From Myxococcales bacterium (GTDB lineage Bacteria > Myxococcota > UBA727 > VGSZ01), in the NCBI GenBank assembly GCA_023248635.1, contig JAHFED010000063.1, positions 1 to 33,967 on the forward strand: a stretch of DNA of 33,967 bases, written 5' to 3'. The first letter of the stretch is position 1. Each line of letters starts with the position of its first letter. The position numbers and the translations under genes were made by a program. Shown here piece after piece: positions 5,470 through 33,967 of the stretch. The notes beneath the pieces are model-generated. The model was not told where the DNA came from. It was given only the letters and a program-made list of their open reading frames with translations, and ran no database searches.

Positions 5470-5499
5470 ACCGATCCGCTCGGTGCTTCGCCGCTTGTC

Positions 5500-5634
5500 G
5501 ATGAATTCACCGACAGCGCTGCGCGTGTCGGTGAATTGTCTACAGGTTCATCGCCTGGCGGCGATGAATTCACCGACAGCGCTTTGCGTGTCGGTGAATT
5601 GTCTACAGGTTCATCGCCTCGCGGCGATGAATTC
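5500..5634. repeat. 63-bp tandem repeat with two palindromes per unit
   Basis: Two full 63-bp units begin at 5500 and 5563, and a third starts at 5626 but stops after about nine bases. Each unit holds a 10-bp stem (TTCACCGACA with TGTCGGTGAA) and a junction hairpin with a 9-bp stem (TTCATCGCC with GGCGATGAA). The first junction hairpin has the loop TGGC, the second TCGC. The units differ only at a few loop bases. They sit between the lipoprotein stop and the RlaP-type gene and could act as a terminator, an mRNA-stabilising element or a mobile REP-like element. The period is a multiple of three, so the frame stays open through it. Confidence 0.9.
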
Positions 5635-13360: not shown

Positions 13361-14575
13361 ATGCCCAGGACCAAAGTGCTCACCCGCTCGCTCCTCGTTG
13401 CGTGGGGCCTCGTCGTCGCCGCCTGTGATTCCCCTCCCGCCGAGGGAGAAGGTGAAGGAGAGGGCGAAGGAGAGGGCGAAGGAGAGGGCGAAGGAGAGGG
13501 CGAAGGAGAGGGCGAAGGAGAGGGCGAAGGAGAGGGCGAGGGCGAAGGAGAGGGCGAAGGAGAGGGCGAAGGAGAGGGCGAAGGAGAGGGCGAAGGAGGG
13601 GGCGAGGGCGAAGGAGAGGGCGAAGGCGAAGGTGAAGGTGAGGGAGAAGGCGAAGGCGAGCCCCCGATTCCGTCGGCGGGCTGCGGCCTCCCCGTCGAGA
13701 CCGACCCCGACCACGACGACGCCGCCGTCTTTTACCCCTACAGCGTCACAGTTGGTGGGCTCCAGCGCGACGCTCGGGTGGTGTTGCCGCTCAACTACGA
13801 TCCCGGCGCGGCGCTGCCGGTCATCTTTGCCTTCCACGGTGACCAGGACTGCCTCACCCCCAACAACGGCAACCCCGACGGGCAGGTGCAATGCGACGAC
13901 CCGATCCCCGCAGCGCTCGGGGACCCCGACCACCTGCCCGACCCGATCGGCCCGATTGTCAACGTCTTTGGCATCGAGGGCGAGCTGGGTGATGAGGCGA
14001 TCATCGTCAGCCTCGACGGCGAAAACCTGAACCGCTTCTTCTCCTTTGGCTCCTGGGACAGCGTGTCCCAACCCAACGACAATCCCGACATCCTCGCGGT
14101 GCGCGCGTTGCTGGCTCGCCTGGAAACGGATTTTTGCGTCGACAGCTCACGCACCTTCGCTGTGGGCTTCTCGGGCGGGGGTTTCTTCACGCACACGATG
14201 GCCTGCTACGGCGAGCCCTTCACCGCCTTCGCCGTCTTCGAGGGCGGGTTTGAAGATGGCTTCGAAGGTGCCGGCAACGTCGTCGACGTCGCGACCTGTA
14301 CGGACGAAGCGCAGAACATGCTGATCGTCAGCGCGCAGGGCGATCCGAACATTACGCCCGGCCAATACGGTCAGCCAGCCCGCGACGTCTGGGCCGACAT
14401 CGCAGGGTGCGCGGCGACCAACACGGTGAGTGACCTCGACCCCGAGTGCGACGAGCTCGATGGCTGCGATGCCGACGTCGTCTATTGCGAGCCCAGCGAT
14501 CCCAACATCGTGCATGAAGTCTGGCCCCCCCAGGGTCCCACCGTGCTGGTGAACTGGCTGCGGCGCTTCTTCTGA
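13361..14575 (+). CDS. Secreted esterase-like lipoprotein with Gly-Glu linker
   Basis: The protein has 404 residues. A lipoprotein signal ends in VVAAC with C22 as the lipid-modified residue. It is followed by 73 residues (28-100) of almost pure Glu-Gly alternation, broken once by a Gly-Gly-Gly. The C-terminal 300 residues resemble the alpha/beta-hydrolase fold of polyhydroxybutyrate depolymerase/feruloyl esterase (CE1, LpqC-like) proteins: [13 protein letters not shown] gives the oxyanion-side strand and [19 protein letters not shown] the nucleophile elbow with Ser in GFSGG. A final VHEVWPPQG may place the catalytic His near the C-terminus. Several cysteines suggest disulfides outside the cytoplasm. 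The acidic linker probably holds the enzyme away from the membrane. The substrate is unknown. Confidence 0.85.
13442..13660 (+). repeat. 12-bp coding minisatellite (Glu-Gly)
   Basis: A 219-bp tract inside the esterase gene is built from a 12-bp unit, GAGGGCGAAGGA, with a few synonymous variants and one change giving Gly-Gly-Gly near 13600. It encodes 73 residues. Repeat number can change without a frameshift, so length variation between strains is likely. Confidence 0.95.
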
Positions 14576-14594: not shown

Positions 14595-15831
14595 ATGACG
14601 ACGTCGCGGCCGCCCCGGTCCGCCGCTGTGCCCTGGTCGCGCGTCGTGCTGCACGTCGACATGGACGCCTTCTACGCCAGCGTCGAGCAGCGCGATCGAC
14701 CCGACCTGCAAGGCAAGCCCGTCGTCGTCGGCGGCACCGGGCGGCGCGGCGTGGTGTCGACGGCGTCGTACGAGGCCCGCAAGTTTGGTGTGAAGAGCGC
14801 GATGTCGACGATGCTGGCGCAGCGCCTGTGTCCCCACGCCATCTTCGTGCGGCCTCGGATGAGCGTCTATGTCGAGGTGAGCAAGCAGATCATGGCCGTG
14901 CTGGGCCGTTTCTCACCGAGCATCGAGCCCCTCTCGGTCGACGAGGCCTTCGTCGACGCCACCGGCACTGAGGACCTGTTCGGGCCACCCGTCGAGCTCG
15001 CCTGGCGCATCCAGCGCGCCATCCGTGAAGAGACAGCGCTGTCGTGTGCCGTGGGTGCAGCGGCGAACAAATATGTGGCCAAGGTCGCGTCAGACCTCAA
15101 GAAGCCCGGCGGCATCGTCGTCGTCGCCCCCGGCGAAGAACGGGCCTTTCTCGCGCCGCTGCCCATCGAGCGCTTGTGGGGCGTGGGTCCAAGGACCGCC
15201 GAGAGGCTGCGCGCCGACGGCTTCGACCTGATCGCCGATATCGCCGCCTCCGATCCAGGGGAGCTGCAACGCCGCTACGGAGCTCTCGGCACCCACATTT
15301 CGGCGCTGGCCCGCGGCCAAGATGATCGACCCATCGACGACGACCACCAGCGCAAATCCCTGGGCGCCGAGCGCACGCTGGAGCACGACATCACCGGCGT
15401 CGCCGCCGTCCGCTCCCAGCTGGTGCCCCTCATCGACGAAGTCGCCGCTGGCCTGCGCAAGGCTGAGCTTCGCGCGAGCGGGGTGCGCTTGAAGTTGAAG
15501 TACGCCGACTTCCGCCGCACCAGCCGCGAGATCTTGTTGCCCGAGCCCGTGCAAGACACAGCGTCGCTGACGGCGGCGCTGGAGCACCTGCTCCCCCGAG
15601 CCGACCTCTCGCGTCCCATGCGCCTGGTGGGACTGGCCGCCACCCACCTCGTGCCCGCCAGCGCCCCGCGCCAGGCCTCCCTCTTTGATCAGCCGCAGAC
15701 GGCGAAAACACGAGGCCCTGGGCCGGGCCGTCGACGCCATCCACATCAAGCACGGGCGCAGCGCCATCATCCGCGGTGAGGTCCGGGACCTCGAGGGCAC
15801 CGACCGCGGCAACGAACACCTTGAGGACTGA
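14595..15831 (+). CDS. dinB: DNA polymerase IV, with apparent +1 frameshift near the 3' end
   Basis: This Y-family translesion polymerase shows the palm signature HVDMDAFYASVE near residues 20-31, SYEARKFGVKSAM, the catalytic SVDEAFVD near 117, CAVGAAANKYVAKVASDLKKP and the helix-hairpin-helix LWGVGPRTAERL. The frame from 14595 ends at a stop at 15777-15779 after an Arg/Pro-rich tail unlike the family. If one A is removed from the AAAA run at 15705-15708, the frame continues AKHEALGRAVDAIHIKHG and SAIIRG to a TGA at 15829-15831. That matches the usual little-finger end of DinB and gives about 411 residues. The extra base could be a sequencing error, a real mutation or a frameshift site. The true start could also be a GTG at 14628. 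The gene follows the esterase gene by 19 bp. Confidence 0.88.
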
Positions 15832-16171
15832 TCCCCGATCTCGTTGAACTTCGACCGCGGACCGGTCTCGTTCATCTCCGTCGGGGATGCCCTTCTGGGG
15901 GAGGTCTGGTGCAGACCTCCCCCCGCGCCGGCGGAGCCGGACGCGGGGCCCCCCACCAACTCCGCGTTCCGCGGGCGCGCTTCACGCGCATCATCCCGCG
16001 TCTTCCCATCTCGGAACGCGGTCGAACATCAAGCGGACGCGGGATGAGCAGCCCTGCGCCGCCGCTCCGGCCTCAGCAACAAGAAAAGGAGTTGAGACGC
16101 GGCGCACATGACCGATGCGCACCCCATATACAGATCGCCAACGCAACCCAACCCTGCCCCTGAGGTGAGGC
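15832..16171. other. 340-bp hairpin-rich intergenic region
   Basis: No convincing gene is seen here; the small open frames are Arg/Pro-rich with no family resemblance. The strongest element is a perfect 12-bp hairpin (GGGGGAGGTCTG at 15897-15908, loop GTG, right arm 15912-15923), followed at once by a second hairpin (CCGCGCCGGC, loop GGA, GCCGGACGCGG with a bulged A). Further downstream, arms at 15962-15970 (CCGCGTTCC) and 16013-16021 pair, while arms at 15992-16002 (CATCCCGCGTC) and 16036-16046 also pair, in interleaved order. The region must also hold the promoter of the giant lipoprotein gene. GAGG at 16162-16165 is its likely ribosome binding site. Confidence 0.6.
15897..15923. terminator. 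Strong hairpin downstream of dinB
   Basis: A perfect 12-bp stem with a three-base loop lies 65 bp after the restored dinB stop. There is no T-run after it, so it is not a classical intrinsic terminator; it may still end or protect transcripts. The call as a terminator is tentative. Confidence 0.4.
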
Positions 16172-27082: not shown

Positions 27083-27982
27083 TCAGGGGCCGAGCAGATG
27101 CTCGAGCAGGGCCTGTTGCACGGGAAGCCGGTTCTGCGCCTGCTGGAAGCACACCGAACGGGAGCCCTCCAGGACGTCGTCGGTGATCTCCTGCCCGCGG
27201 TGGGCCGGCAGGGAGTGCAGCACCGTGACGTCGTCGTCGGCCCGCTGCAGCAAGGCGTCATCGACGCAAAACCCCGGTGCCACCGGGCGCGACCAGGCGG
27301 CAGTTGAGACGACGTCGGCGCCCTCAATGGCGTCGCTGGGCGATCGGTGCAGCGAGACCCGAGCGCGAGCCTGGGCGCGCTTGAGCAGGTCAGCGTCGAC
27401 GTCGACGCCGACCGGGAGGGCGAGGCGCAGCTCCCAACCCGTGAGCAGGGCCAGGGCCAGGTAGCCCTGCGCGATGGCAACGCTGTCGCCGACGAAGCAG
27501 ACCTTGCTCTCGTAAGGACGCTCGCGGCGCTCGTAGAGGGTGAACAAGTCGGTGAGCACCTGGCAGGGGTGGTCGCGGTCGGACAAGCCGTTGACGACGG
27601 GGACGGCGGCGTGTCGCGCCAGCTCTTCGACGGTGGCGTGGGGCCCATGGGGGCGCACCACCAGGGCATCCAAGCTGCTGCCCAGCACCCGGGCGGTGTC
27701 GCGCAGCACTTCACCGGTATCGGCGCCCTCTGCCGGGGCACCCAGCCACAGGTCGCGGCCCTGCAACACGATGGTGGCTCCCCCCAGCAGCTTCACGCCG
27801 GCCTCGAAGCTGACGCGGGTGCGCGTCGACGGCTTCTCGAAGAGCATGCCGATGACCCGACCCGAGAGAGTGGGCGCGAGGCGTCGGGCGACGCGGTGGC
27901 GCTTGAGCTCCTGGGCCCGCAGCAGCAGGCCCTCAAGGGTCTTGAGGTCAACGACGTCGAGGGTGGTGCGCAGGTGTCTCAC
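27083..27982 (-). CDS. Ornithine carbamoyltransferase-like enzyme with altered acceptor motifs
   Basis: The GTG at 27982 overlaps the preceding gene's stop (GTGA) and gives 299 residues. The carbamoyl-phosphate half is intact: EKPSTRTRVSFE with STRTR at 52-56, DTARVLGS near 95 and HPCQVLTDLFTLY with HPCQ at 138-141. The half that binds the amino acceptor differs from ornithine enzymes. The usual GDxxNN loop reads GDSVAIAQ at 165-172, the DTWxSMG loop reads TAAWSRPVA, and the HCLPA motif reads HSLPAHRG at 256-263. It could be a divergent argF, or a paralogue that carbamoylates another amine, as N-acetyl- and N-succinylornithine enzymes do. No other arginine-synthesis gene is next to it. The upstream partner gene is a HEAT/cyclophilin lipoprotein, with no obvious metabolic link. 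Confidence 0.85.
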   Translation of the reverse strand: MRHLRTTLDVVDLKTLEGLLLRAQELKRHRVARRLAPTLSGRVIGMLFEKPSTRTRVSFEAGVKLLGGATIVLQGRDLWLGAPAEGADTGEVLRDTARVLGSSLDALVVRPHGPHATVEELARHAAVPVVNGLSDRDHPCQVLTDLFTLYERRERPYESKVCFVGDSVAIAQGYLALALLTGWELRLALPVGVDVDADLLKRAQARARVSLHRSPSDAIEGADVVSTAAWSRPVAPGFCVDDALLQRADDDVTVLHSLPAHRGQEITDDVLEGSRSVCFQQAQNRLPVQQALLEHLLGP

Positions 27983-30093
27983 CGGGCCGCCTTGCGCAGC
28001 GCGGTCGTGAGCTCGACCGAGAGCAGGAGGTCGTCCTTCTGCAGGGCATCCATGACGTCGTCGCCGTCGACGACGCGGGCGAAGAGGGTGTAGCGGCCGT
28101 CGAGATGGGGCTGGTGCGAGTGGGTCAGGAAAAACTGGCTGCCGCCGGTGTCTTTGCCGGCGGTGGCCATGCCGACGGCGCCGCGGGTGTAGGGGGCGTC
28201 GCTGTTTTCGCAAGGCAGCGTGAAGCCGGGGCCGCCGGAGCCGTCGCCGCGGGGGTCACCGCCCTGAGAGACGAAGTCGGCGATGACGCGGTGAAAGGGG
28301 GTGCCGTTGAAGGTGCCCTTGGCCGCAAGGTCGGCGAAGCTCTTGACCGTGCGAGGAGCAAGCTCTCGTTCAAAGGCAATCAGGATGTCGCCGCGCGAGG
28401 TGTGCAGGAGGGCGGCGACGGGCAACTTGCCGAAGGCGACCTCGGGCAGGGCCAAGGCTCGCGGCCCCGGTGCTCGTTCGCCGGCGGGGACGTCTTTGGC
28501 GGCGTCTCTGACCCGCGCATCGGAGTGCGAAAGCAAGGTGTCGCGCAGCGCTTGCATCGTCGGCCCCGGGCGTGTGCGGGTGAGGGCGGCGAGGGCCAGC
28601 AGAGGCTCGGTGTGCTCGAAGTCGGTGCCACCCAGAAAGCGCTGCACGGACTGCGAGATGGTGCGATCCTGCAGCACGTCGGCGTTTTTTCCGTCGACGA
28701 AGCACTCCAGCAGGGCCGATGACACGCCTGGGTCGGGCTCGTCGATCAAGCGGGCGGCAGCGACGTCGGCGGCGGCGAAGGTGGGGTCGGCGCACACGAC
28801 GGAGGCAGCGGCCATGCGCACGCGGATGTTCTCGCTCCTGAAGAACTCGCCGGCGGCCTTGGCCTTCTCGGGCGACGGGGTGCGCGCGTGTTCGATGGCG
28901 GTCAGCGCCATTTTCTGCTGGAACTCCGGGGGCTGGCCCTGGCTGCAGGTCTCGACCGCATCGTCGTCGCCGCCGAGGACTTCGATGGCCGCGGCGCAGC
29001 TGCAGCGCGCCTGCAGGCTGTCGGCACCCGTCAGGCCCGCCACCGCCGCCGTCACCGCCGGCAAGGCCGTGGGTGCGCCGATGTCGGCGAGGAGGAGGCA
29101 GGCCTCGGTGACGACGTGCCGCTGGCCCTTGCCCACGGCGGCGGTCAGCACCGCAGGGATGAGGTCAGCGTTGCGATCGGCCCTGACAGCGGTCGCCCGC
29201 AGCGCCTCGATCTGCACCCGCCAATCGGGATCGTCGAGCAGCGTGGGCAAGGCGCTGTCGGCGACGGCGGGACCAGCGGCGGCCATCGAGCGCGCCAAGA
29301 AAATGCGCGTCTGGGGGCCGCCCGTCAGGGCAGCGTCGACGGCGTCTTTGGGCAGGACCAGCTTTTGGCGGAAGGCGGCGTAGGCGGCGGCGGCCCGAAC
29401 GTCGTCGTCAGCGTCGGCGAGACCAATGGCGACGGAGGCCAGCACCCCGGCGTCGTCTTTGCGCGAGGCCTGGCGCCGCGCCCCCGAGACCCCGATGGCA
29501 AAGAGGGCTTCCCGCCGCTCTGCCGCGCTCGTCCCTGTGGCAAGGGGCACCAAGGCATCCAGACCACTGCGCGATCCGATTCTGCCCAGCGCGCGGATGA
29601 GCGCGAGCCGCGCTTGGAGATCCCGCTCGGCGCTCAGGGCGGCGGTGAGGGCGGTCTCGATGTTCTGCCGTTGGGTCTCGTGGGACGGCCTCTTGGGATC
29701 GATGGCCAGGTCGAGCTGGCCGGCGGCGAAGGCAGCCCCGCGGCGCACGGCGGCGTCTTTGTCCTTGAGCGCACCCAGGATGGGTTCGACGGCATCGAGA
29801 CGTTCCAGACGGCCCAGCGCCAACACCGTGCGAGCGCGCAGCTCGGCGTCGCTGTTGGCAAGCCCCGGCCCGAGGTCCGCCGCCGCCGCCCGCGCACCCT
29901 CTCGCTGGATGATGGTTGCCTTGTCGATGTCGCCCTCGTCGCGTCGTCCCGCGCCTGTTCCCCTGGATGCGGGACACGCTGCGACAAGGAGCGGCACGAG
30001 CAGCCAACCCAGGGTCCGCAGGCGCTGGCGTCTGGCGGTGATGACGTTCGGGGCGACGCGGGGCGGGGAAGGGGAGCACTTCGAGGCAGACAT
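27979..30093 (-). CDS. HEAT-repeat lipoprotein with C-terminal cyclophilin domain
   Basis: The chosen ATG at 30093 gives 704 residues; the frame is open far upstream only because the palindrome array has no stops. A lipoprotein signal LLVPLLVAAC places the lipid on C40. Residues about 60-530 form HEAT-like helical repeats (DAELRARTVLALGRLERLDA, KDAAVRRGAAFAAGQLDL, DADDDVRAAAAYAAFRQ). Residues about 545-700 are a cyclophilin-type peptidyl-prolyl isomerase: GTPFHRVIADFVSQGGDPRG, then GSQFFLTHSHQPHLDGRYTL and FARVVDGDDVMDAL, including the FHR and Q-x-F positions of the active site. It would face the periplasm and may help fold or assemble envelope proteins, using the HEAT part to hold clients. 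The start has weak ribosome-binding sequence. The stop overlaps the carbamoyltransferase start, so they are coupled. Confidence 0.9.
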   Translation of the reverse strand: MSASKCSPSPPRVAPNVITARRQRLRTLGWLLVPLLVAACPASRGTGAGRRDEGDIDKATIIQREGARAAAADLGPGLANSDAELRARTVLALGRLERLDAVEPILGALKDKDAAVRRGAAFAAGQLDLAIDPKRPSHETQRQNIETALTAALSAERDLQARLALIRALGRIGSRSGLDALVPLATGTSAAERREALFAIGVSGARRQASRKDDAGVLASVAIGLADADDDVRAAAAYAAFRQKLVLPKDAVDAALTGGPQTRIFLARSMAAAGPAVADSALPTLLDDPDWRVQIEALRATAVRADRNADLIPAVLTAAVGKGQRHVVTEACLLLADIGAPTALPAVTAAVAGLTGADSLQARCSCAAAIEVLGGDDDAVETCSQGQPPEFQQKMALTAIEHARTPSPEKAKAAGEFFRSENIRVRMAAASVVCADPTFAAADVAAARLIDEPDPGVSSALLECFVDGKNADVLQDRTISQSVQRFLGGTDFEHTEPLLALAALTRTRPGPTMQALRDTLLSHSDARVRDAAKDVPAGERAPGPRALALPEVAFGKLPVAALLHTSRGDILIAFERELAPRTVKSFADLAAKGTFNGTPFHRVIADFVSQGGDPRGDGSGGPGFTLPCENSDAPYTRGAVGMATAGKDTGGSQFFLTHSHQPHLDGRYTLFARVVDGDDVMDALQKDDLLLSVELTTALRKAAR

Positions 30094-30160
30094 GGTGACG
30101 CCGTCGTTACCAGAGATTCGCCCCCGGCGTCGGAAGTCTTGGCGTTTGAAGTGCCCATGG

Positions 30161-30499
30161 CTTGAGCCGCTGGCACAGCTCAAAGGGCTTCCTGCTTTGC
30201 GCCGTTGGCACGGCGCAAAGTGCTTCCTGCTTTGCGCCGTTGGCACGGCGCAAAGTGCTTCCTGCTTTGCGCCGTTGGCACGGCGCAAAGTGCTTCCTGC
30301 CTTGCGCCGTTGGCACGGCGCAAAGTGCTTCCTGCTTTGCGCCGTTGGCACGGCGCAAAGTGCTTCCTGCTTTGCGCCGTTGGCACGGCGCAAAGTGCTT
30401 CCTGCTTTGCGCCGTTGGCACGGCGCAAAGTGCTTCCTGCCTTGCGCCGTTGGCACGGCGCAAAGTGCTTCCTGCTTTGCGCCGTTGGCACGGCGCAAA
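30161..30499. repeat. Ten-unit array of a 35-bp palindrome with TGGC loop
   Basis: The 418 bp between the genes at 30093 and 30512 contains no gene but holds ten units at an exact 35-bp period (starts at 30161, 30196, 30231 and so on to 30476). Each unit is a hairpin TTTGCGCCGT, loop TGGC, ACGGCGCAAA, followed by the spacer GTGCTTCCTGC. Inner units pair over 11 bp. The first unit is a variant (CTTGAGCCGC, TGGC, ACAGCTCAAA; spacer GGGCTTCCTGC). Units 4 and 8 of the nine regular copies share a T-to-C change at their first base. Such an array could cap or stabilise mRNA, stop transcription, or be a REP-like element. Open frames within it on both strands are artefacts of the repeat. Confidence 0.97.
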
Positions 30500-30511
30500 C
30501 AACAGAACGCA

Positions 30512-31345
30512 TTATTCCAGGCGATCGGGATCCGCGGCGTCGAGGGCCGCCTTCAAGACGGCGGGGTCACCGAGTGCTTCCTGCAGCAGACGGGCAAGCA
30601 CCATCAAGTTGGGGCGGTTGCCGATGGCGACGAACATGCCGGCTTCGGAGTCGAAGCTGATCTGTTCGGCGAGGTCGGGACGGCGCAAGCGCACCAACGA
30701 ATCGGCGACGGCCTCCCAGGTGTACCCGCCCCCCTCGAGGCCCCGCTCCTGAAAGAGCGCGACTTCGGGCATTTTGAAATCATCGAAACACAAAGAGAAG
30801 CGGCCTTCGCCGTGATCGACCAGGCGGCAGGGAGCGACGTCGTCGTCGTCTTCAACCCCGCGGATTTCCCCCTCGGAGCGCAAGCCCCCGTCGTTGGCTT
30901 CGTCCATCTGCTCAGAGGTGACGGCGTGGGCGAGGGCGTCGCCGCCCTGGTAGGCCGTCGTCAAGGACGCCAGGTCGACGGGCTTTTTGCGCGCGGGCAG
31001 CGGAATGACCTGCGCCTCCGCCGGGGCGGGAGCCGGGCTCTGCGGCCTCACGCTCTTCTTCGGGGCCTTCGTTGGAGCCGTCGCCATCTTGGCGGTCTTC
31101 TTGGCGGTCTTCTTGGCGGTCTTCTTGGCGGTCTTCTTGGCGGTCTTCTTGGCGGTCTTCTTGGCGGTCTTCTTGGCGGTCTTCTTCGCGGTCTTCTTCG
31201 CGGTCTTCTTCGCGGTCTTTTTCGCGGTCTTCTGCACGGTCTTCTTCGCCCTCTTCTTGCTGACGGTCTTCCCCTTGCCTCCTGCCTTGGGCTTGGGGGC
31301 GGATTTCGTCGTCGACTTTTTCTTCTTCTTCTTCTTCGTCGCCAT
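30512..31345 (-). CDS. Histone-H1-like basic protein with Imm51-like C-terminal domain
   Basis: The 277-residue protein starts MATKKKKKKKSTTKSAPKPK, then has about thirteen KKTA/QKTA repeats, a highly basic tail like histone H1 or bacterial H1-like nucleoid proteins. A Pro/Ala linker follows (APTKAPKKSVRPQSPAPAPA). The C-terminal 104 residues are a folded, acidic-to-neutral domain: HGEGRFSLCFDDF, GLEGGGYTWEAVADSLV, FDSEAGMFVAIGN, LMVLARLLQEALGDPAVL. This pattern resembles the Imm51 family of immunity proteins (GY-x-WE followed by FD-x-EAGMF). ATG at 31345 has GAGGAGA upstream (31351-31358). The protein may bind DNA through its tail; the role of the C-terminal domain is unknown. The fusion has no toxin gene beside it in the window. 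Confidence 0.85.
   Translation of the reverse strand: MATKKKKKKKSTTKSAPKPKAGGKGKTVSKKRAKKTVQKTAKKTAKKTAKKTAKKTAKKTAKKTAKKTAKKTAKKTAKKTAKKTAKMATAPTKAPKKSVRPQSPAPAPAEAQVIPLPARKKPVDLASLTTAYQGGDALAHAVTSEQMDEANDGGLRSEGEIRGVEDDDDVAPCRLVDHGEGRFSLCFDDFKMPEVALFQERGLEGGGYTWEAVADSLVRLRRPDLAEQISFDSEAGMFVAIGNRPNLMVLARLLQEALGDPAVLKAALDAADPDRLE
31087..31255 (-). repeat. 12-bp coding minisatellite (Lys-Lys-Thr-Ala)
   Basis: Read on the plus strand, a 12-bp unit CTTGGCGGTCTT is repeated, changing to CTTCGCGGTCTT in the last part. It encodes KKTA units in the H1-like tail. Unit number may change without breaking the frame. Confidence 0.93.
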
Positions 31346-32128: not shown

Positions 32129-32149
32129 TCTGGCCACCTCAACGTGCTT

Positions 32150-32185
32150 CCCGCTCTTGAGCCGTTGGCACGGCTCAAGAGCGGG
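32150..32185. repeat. 16-bp-stem TGGC-loop palindrome upstream of the MarR gene
   Basis: The arms CCCGCTCTTGAGCCGT (32150-32165) and ACGGCTCAAGAGCGGG (32170-32185) pair perfectly around the loop TGGC. The preceding GTGCTTCC matches the spacer of the 35-bp array at 30161. The stem differs from the array unit at several positions, but each change is matched on the other arm. It lies between the divergent MarR and AstA genes and may act in the MarR leader. Confidence 0.92.
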
Positions 32186-33432: not shown

Positions 33433-33535
33433 AGTGGTCGGAGCGGTCGGCGCAAGTGCTTCCTGCTTTGCGCGGTCGGCACGGCGCGATGGTGCTTCCT
33501 GCTTTGCGCCGTGGCCACGGCGCAAAGTGAGGCAG
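33433..33535. repeat. Cluster of TGGC-loop palindrome copies
   Basis: After the astA stop there are two recognisable copies and one remnant of the 35-bp family. The copy at 33467 reads TTTGCGCGGT, loop CGGC, ACGGCGCGAT. The copy at 33503-33526 reads TTTGCGCCGT, loop GGCC in a shifted form, ACGGCGCAAA. Both are preceded by the spacer GTGCTTCCTGC, and a further GGGCTTCCTGC lies at 33605-33615 just before the next gene. All copies are in the same orientation as the array at 30161. They may help end the astA transcript. Confidence 0.88.
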
Positions 33536-33626: not shown

Positions 33627-33967
33627 GTGAAGGTCCACCGCACCCTGTTGCTTGCCGCCGCGAGCCTGACTGCTTGCGTGCTGGCGCCCGTCGAGGTCCT
33701 CGACGCTGATTGCGACAACGAAAGCCATCCTTGCGTCGTCGGCGGCGACGTCTGCATTTTTCGTCGTTGTGTGGCCGCATGTGACATCGACAACGACGAC
33801 TGTCCGCTCGATCGCACCTGCCGACGTGATCCCGCCAGCGATGAGTTTGGCTGTGTGCCCAAGAGCGCCGCCGGCGAGGGGGAGGGCGAGGGAGAAGGCG
33901 AGGGAGAAGGCGAGGGAGAAGGCGAGGGAGAAGGCGAGGGAGAAGGCGAGGGAGAAGGCGAGGGAGA
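33627..33967 (+). CDS. Cys-rich lipoprotein with Gly-Glu linker, 3' end outside window (partial)
   Basis: The GTG at 33627 follows AGAGGTGA and gives a lipoprotein signal LLLAAASLTAC with C17. About 65 residues with seven cysteines follow (DCDNESHPCVVGGDVC, RCVAACDIDNDDC, CRRDPASDEFGC), a small disulfide-rich module like those found in surface proteins of this group. From residue 83 the protein is a Gly-Glu repeat that runs to the window edge. Nothing can be said about the main domain beyond the edge. It is the second Gly-Glu lipoprotein in the window, the other being at 13361. Confidence 0.85.
   Translation, partial: MKVHRTLLLAAASLTACVLAPVEVLDADCDNESHPCVVGGDVCIFRRCVAACDIDNDDCPLDRTCRRDPASDEFGCVPKSAAGEGEGEGEGEGEGEGEGEGEGEGEGEGEGEG
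33873..33967 (+). repeat. 12-bp coding minisatellite (Gly-Glu), cut by window end
   Basis: The 12-bp unit GAGGGAGAAGGC repeats without change to the window edge. It encodes the same Gly-Glu linker as the tract at 13442 but with a different codon order, so the two tracts expanded independently. Confidence 0.93.

Follow-up and report, generated by a model that had tools for sequence, protein, structure and literature searches.

REP and BIME elements, which are associated with RAYT (TnpA-REP) proteins and include GTAG- and CGTC-tagged families, are 20–40-bp palindromes that occur outside genes in high copy number (PMC3733652, PMC8266576). Their hairpins bear an unpaired 5' tag at the foot, one genome can hold several stem families, and the stems change by complementary substitutions. 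REP/BIME units lie mostly as inverted HH/TT dimers, and head-to-tail arrangement is said to be absent or under-represented (PMC3733652). CGTC-tagged REPs include hairpins that lack a dedicated transposase (PMC3733652), and for them the still-open question has already been posed of how a REP-like hairpin spreads with no evident transposase. In IS200/IS605 and REP systems alike, the hairpin is preceded on its 5' side by a short sequence that serves as guide or recognition motif (PMC8266576). IS200/IS605 elements and their non-autonomous derivatives carry such a sequence next to a subterminal hairpin and insert 3' of a short AT-rich pentanucleotide, which for ISDra2 is TTGAT (PMC2806898). CRISPR arrays also combine a palindromic repeat with regular spacing, and their spacers are variable.

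Here we describe hairpin arrays of a Myxococcales bacterium that share features with each of these systems. They are neither GTAG- or CGTC-tagged REPs nor CRISPRs. Like REPs and BIMEs, they consist of high-copy extragenic palindromes of 20–40 bp with a 5' foot tag, several stem families, and complementary stem changes. Unlike them, they are tagged GATG(G) or CCTGC, insert 3' of NGAA, line up mostly head-to-tail in arrays that reach 18 units, and come from a genome in which we found no catalytically intact RAYT. CGTC-tagged REPs differ from them in the tag and in the tandem arrangement. With IS200/IS605 they share the hairpin preceded by a short sequence and insertion 3' of a pentanucleotide (here TTGAA or TTGAT), and given the ISDra2 target and the 5' guide motif, the layout of the units resembles the working parts of IS200/IS605 and REP systems. 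In contrast to IS200/IS605, the units measure only 33–35 bp, contain a single hairpin and no ORF, and end in an apparent copy of the target. CRISPR is set apart by its variable spacers; the spacers here are nearly invariant, the arrays occupy dozens of sites, and no defence context was seen. We consider it probable that these are REP-like non-autonomous hairpin elements seeded by insertion 3' of NGAA, whose arrays grew by local duplication. The arrays also show a route from a dispersed element to a regular, CRISPR-looking tandem array.

A ten-unit array and its surroundings

The stretch of DNA analyzed, hereafter the window, is a 33,967-nt contig (C115) of a 6.53-Mb assembly in 135 contigs, 96.7% complete. 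It contains ten palindromes of 24 nt, each with a TGGC loop, that begin at 30161 and recur every 35 bp up to 30476. Tandem Repeats Finder returned positions 30162–30499 at period 35, with 9.7 copies, 97% matches, and 0% indels, bearing out the periodicity that had been read from the sequence. Unit 1 is a deviant palindrome, CTTGAGCCGCTGGCACAGCTCAAA, at 30161–30184, with the divergent stem CTTGAGCCGC-TGGC-ACAGCTCAAA. Units 2–10 (30185–30499, plus strand) each comprise an 11-nt tag, GGGCTTCCTGC in one unit and GTGCTTCCTGC thereafter, and a 24-nt palindrome with the stem TTTGCGCCGT-TGGC-ACGGCGCAAA. The near identity of these linkers upholds the earlier judgment that the array is not a CRISPR. Two of the nine regular palindromes begin with C in place of T: unit 5 (30301–30324) and unit 9 (30441–30464), 140 bp apart. 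These are the fourth and eighth regular copies in the numbering of the original prediction, and the four-unit block it proposed is visible at these positions. Several other arrays of this short-read assembly contain N gaps or contig ends; the number of copies and the order of blocks, the four-unit block of the window among them, therefore depend on the assembly.

The true left edge of the array lies at 30151, upstream of the start first reported, since unit 1 is also tagged. Its tag, GTGCCCATGG (30151–30160, plus strand), is a variant of GTGCCGATGG and directly follows TTGAA (30146–30150, plus strand). This pentanucleotide is the presumed insertion target; solitary and first units elsewhere follow GAA or AAA.

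Two minus-strand genes flank the array: a putative lipoprotein with HEAT repeats and a cyclophilin-type PPIase domain (27979–30093), and a protein with an H1-like AKKTAKK tail (30512–31345). The latter carries an immunity protein 51 domain (Imm51, PF15595; E 9e-21) at its C terminus, and its AKK tail differs in length between this genome and two relatives of the same genus, G001 and G002. Both relatives keep the order MarR, H1-like, HEAT/PPIase with no array between the last two genes, and the window array therefore arose in this lineage after the split within the genus. Together with the high copy number and almost exclusively intergenic location of the unit, described below, this supports the recent expansion proposed for it. 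In the flanking protein, these nearest relatives are just 46–55% identical to the window, so "species-specific" here means absent from these relatives only.

The window holds further copies on its plus strand. A solitary unit with the tag GTGCTTCCCGC(T) and the palindrome CTTGAGCCGTTGGCACGGCTCAAG lies at 32144–32179, a two-unit array with GTGCTTCCTGC tags and degenerate palindromes at 33456–33526, and a degenerate solitary palindrome, TTTGAGCCGTCGGCCCGGTGCAAA, at 732–755. A different stem with the same loop, TTCATCGCC-TGGC-GGCGATGAA, forms part of a 63-bp composite tandem repeat at 5499–5634 (plus strand). Such composites, which also occur at L066, L068, L076, and other loci, join this palindrome to a second one, TTCACCGACA...TGTCGGTGAA, and a linker, TTGTCTACAGG.

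Three hairpin families in one genome

Allowing up to 2 mismatches, the 25-mer palindrome of the window array, which we term family A, has 294 copies in its own genome, and its reversed control has 0; for the 11-nt linker GTGCTTCCTGC, the counts are 152 for the motif and 9 for the reversed sequence. By these controls, the A palindrome is not a product of chance. The unit thus recurs across the genome, which the original prediction had named as a check on its reading, and it does so at high copy number and almost only between genes, which supports the reading as a REP-like element. The A palindrome had 0 copies in 96 relatives, two of which belong to the same genus. Scans of GTDB genome contigs and of viral contigs (IMG/VR) did not return the exact unit pattern, and Rfam gave only chance hits far under gathering scores. 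We rejected a phage or plasmid origin, as neither IMG/VR nor similarity searches of phage and plasmid collections gave a match.

The TGGC loop recurs in two sister families. Family B, the stem found in the composites, has 246 copies, and family C, with the stem TTCAAGACGC-TGGC-GCGTCTTGAA and a period of 33–34, has 398 copies and no match among the 96 relatives. G001 holds six B-like stem-variant copies, in some of which the stem is changed pairwise (e.g., TTCATCACC-TGGC-GGTGATGAA). Families A, B, and C together amount to about 940 copies in one genome, spread throughout it as solitary units and as arrays, with 1–18 units per site. In 1.02 Mb, we counted 388 perfect hairpins of at least 9 bp versus about 50 in shuffles; 208 have a TGGC or GCCA loop, and the TGGC-loop hairpins group chiefly into the three families. 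A genome-wide continuum of TGGC-loop stems was considered and discarded: outside A, B, and C, TGGC is not enriched, save for a few CTTCAGGCGC stems.

We read about 1.42 Mb of the 6.53 Mb directly, mainly the surroundings of A arrays. Each unit consists of a 5' tag of 9–11 nt followed by the hairpin. The tag is GTGCCGATGG in A, whereas C units have the related GTTCTGATGG or GTTTGGATG; most A units bear GTGCTTCCTGC, which looks derived. The 5' pentamers include CCTGC (162), GATGG (22), and CGATG (7) among 265 A units, and GGATG (23), TGATG (20), and GATGG (13) among 99 C units. At the 3' end, A units finish in ..CAAA, B units in ..GATGAA, and C units in ..CTTGAA, so that all members end in GAA or AAA. 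The families are tied together by this shared layout of tag and loop and by five places where A and C units are mixed within arrays. C stems covary, with 33 both-side changes; shuffles averaged 13 and never exceeded 26. Arrays are mostly head-to-tail in a single orientation; at the loosest threshold, 8 of 108 combine both orientations. At L083:9429–9592 lies an A array in which every palindrome is inverted relative to its linker (TGCCAA centre behind GTGCTTCCTGC). The directional tag, the NGAA target, and the two families with other stems had escaped the original prediction, whose interpretation is, as a whole, partly supported.

Insertion sites and array growth

Solitary units sit 3' of NTGAA. 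GAA directly precedes the tag at 18 of 31 C loci against a background of 1.3%, and AA does so at 18 of 28 A loci (background, 3.3%). At some loci, the GAA or AAA on the left could be what is left of an older, decayed unit instead of a target. The N of NTGAA differs by host for solitary C units, however, which indicates that the site is part of the target and does not derive from a decayed neighbor alone. In A arrays, GAA or AAA is found upstream only, and no common target is apparent downstream.

Empty sites, few in number, are available for two host contexts in C and one in A. At L065:1201, a single 33-bp C unit lies inside an approximately 220-bp dispersed repeat, of which the sample contains 35 uninterrupted copies; the empty site reads CGCTTGAT|GTTCGACC. 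This C unit ends in TTGAT, identical to the TTGAT of the empty target, where the family norm is TTGAA, and the match hints that the target is copied into the 3' end of the element. C units at L064:5250 and L073:18042 split another repeat at the same host site, CCAGTTGAA|GTTCGCTC, for which there are 5 and 3 empty copies, respectively. For family A, the array at L068:10385–10680 splits a B composite precisely at the junction of GGCGATGAA and TTCACCGACAGCG. Since this genome combines about 940 copies from three related families with exact empty sites and a target rule that is simple, excision and insertion are directly testable in it. The dispersed repeat that hosts the L065:1201 insertion is itself represented in the window, at 15826–16050; it has an inner hairpin, GGGAGGTCTG-GTG-CAGACCTCCC, and about 54 copies in the 1.42 Mb.

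Local duplication is at work as well. Identity is 92.5% within arrays versus 89.5% between them, and in certain arrays most units carry variants private to that array: all units of L065 are 34 bp long, and L063 has GCGCACC. These observations and the four-unit block led us to propose that arrays grow mainly by tandem duplication. We envisage that one or a few tag-plus-hairpin units would first insert 3' of NGAA, probably from single-stranded DNA, a step we liken to IS200/IS605 and RAYT/REP systems. The GAA or AAA end of each copy could then offer a new landing site, so that the next unit lands directly behind it; with such an end on every unit, and with insertion requiring NGAA on its 5' side, arrays would be head-to-tail and of one orientation. 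Most of the length of an array would come from local tandem duplication, by slippage or unequal crossing-over in the 35-bp register, as the window block may exemplify. A bolder version, in which this hairpin class (TGGC loop, GATG-type tag, 3' end copying its own NGAA target) moves without any Y1/HUH transposase and builds its arrays by reinserting behind itself, strikes us as rather unlikely.

The same private variants, the 34- and 35-bp registers, and the four-unit block would also fit a repeat that expands through slippage and unequal exchange with no transposition-like step, and that disperses through ectopic recombination, template switching, or gene conversion at short GAA-containing homology. 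The C insertions lie between direct repeats of 5–9 bp (TTGAT-GTT, TTGAA-GTT), which could be microhomology, and we found no transposase. Recombination alone, however, can hardly account for exact insertions of single units that number in the hundreds and keep a fixed 5' boundary, and we regard this explanation as possible but doubtful.

Candidate enzymes and relation to genes

The preferred reading, insertion followed by local duplication, calls for a mover, and on this point the genome speaks against it. No Y1 transposase (Y1_Tnp, PF01797), no TnpB zinc-ribbon domain, and no IS110-type transposase (IS110 C-terminal domain) was detected in the 96.7%-complete genome; a Y2_Tnp search gave no match, and its control likewise matched nowhere. 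A RAYT gene, another check put forward for the array, does have a homologue here, but it is the sole one found and is catalytically degenerate. This protein, fused to a DnaA C-terminal HTH (Bac_DnaA_C), is encoded on the minus strand at L171:961–1914 (contig C9, ~359453–360406) and is the only match to NF047646, at 43 bits against a cut-off of 80. Judged by the published Y---NP/HuH motif definition (PMC6006769), ExR replaces HuH, and W replaces both the Tyr and the Asn of Y---NP. HuH, Tyr, and Asn are missing in all ten orthologues in the alignment; the gene is single-copy and conserved across the order, and GTDB genome contigs contained no relative of the protein. It could be no more than a domesticated binder, a TnpA-REP derivative that is probably non-catalytic. 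The mover of the A, B, and C elements may have been lost, may be missing from the assembly, or may be of another type.

A canonical REP system, in which GTAG- or CGTC-class REPs are moved by a working RAYT of this genome, would account for the size, copy number, extragenic location, and hairpin-plus-tag layout of the units. It could also draw on the Bac_DnaA_C-bearing homologue, whose stop codon is followed after 16 bp by a B element, a neighborhood that may be due to chance. The tags belong to neither class, the homologue lacks HuH, catalytic Tyr, and Asn in all ten aligned orthologues (although the genomes of those orthologues are without A or C repeats), and the head-to-tail arrangement is the one described as absent or under-represented in REPs (PMC3733652). 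We therefore consider such a system improbable.

Genes were placed with a home-made caller, which called 88% of the genome coding. By these calls, 45 of 47 A arrays are intergenic, whereas solitary C units are found inside predicted genes too. Of 39 intergenic A arrays, 20 lie in codirectional, 10 in convergent, and 9 in divergent gaps, which make up 55%, 13.5%, and 31% of intergenic bases, respectively; the nearest gene end is a 5' end at 31 A loci and a 3' end at 24. A arrays thus favor neither gene 3' ends nor one orientation. No orientation bias of units with GC skew or replichore was seen, as lagging-strand insertion might have given, although this test is weak. The recurrent gene families inspected among the neighbors of arrays are ordinary kinases and response regulators, and we dropped a link to a transposase gene, having recognized none among them.

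Selection of the units as a protein-binding array, with sites for nucleoid, partition, or regulatory proteins, might explain the strongly conserved TGGC loop and tag, the regular spacing, and the intergenic location; it sits poorly with wholly different stems in the sister families, 1–18 units per site, the lack of a consistent relation to gene orientation, and absence from the same-genus relatives, and we hold it very unlikely. The mRNA-protecting or terminator role once suggested for the array is rejected as least credible of all since, despite hairpins that are stable as RNA (−13 to −16.5 kcal/mol per hairpin) and a mild excess in convergent gaps, A arrays show the above indifference to 3' ends, occupy divergent as well as convergent and codirectional gaps, and in the window have no U-tract after the last unit. 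Most likely, the window array is intergenic DNA of a selfish or neutral kind and does not regulate its neighbors.

Aside from these hairpins, the window contains low-complexity 12-bp repeats, CGAAGGAGAGGG and GGCGAGGGAGAA, at 13441–13660 and 33873–33967, which possibly encode G/E-rich tracts.
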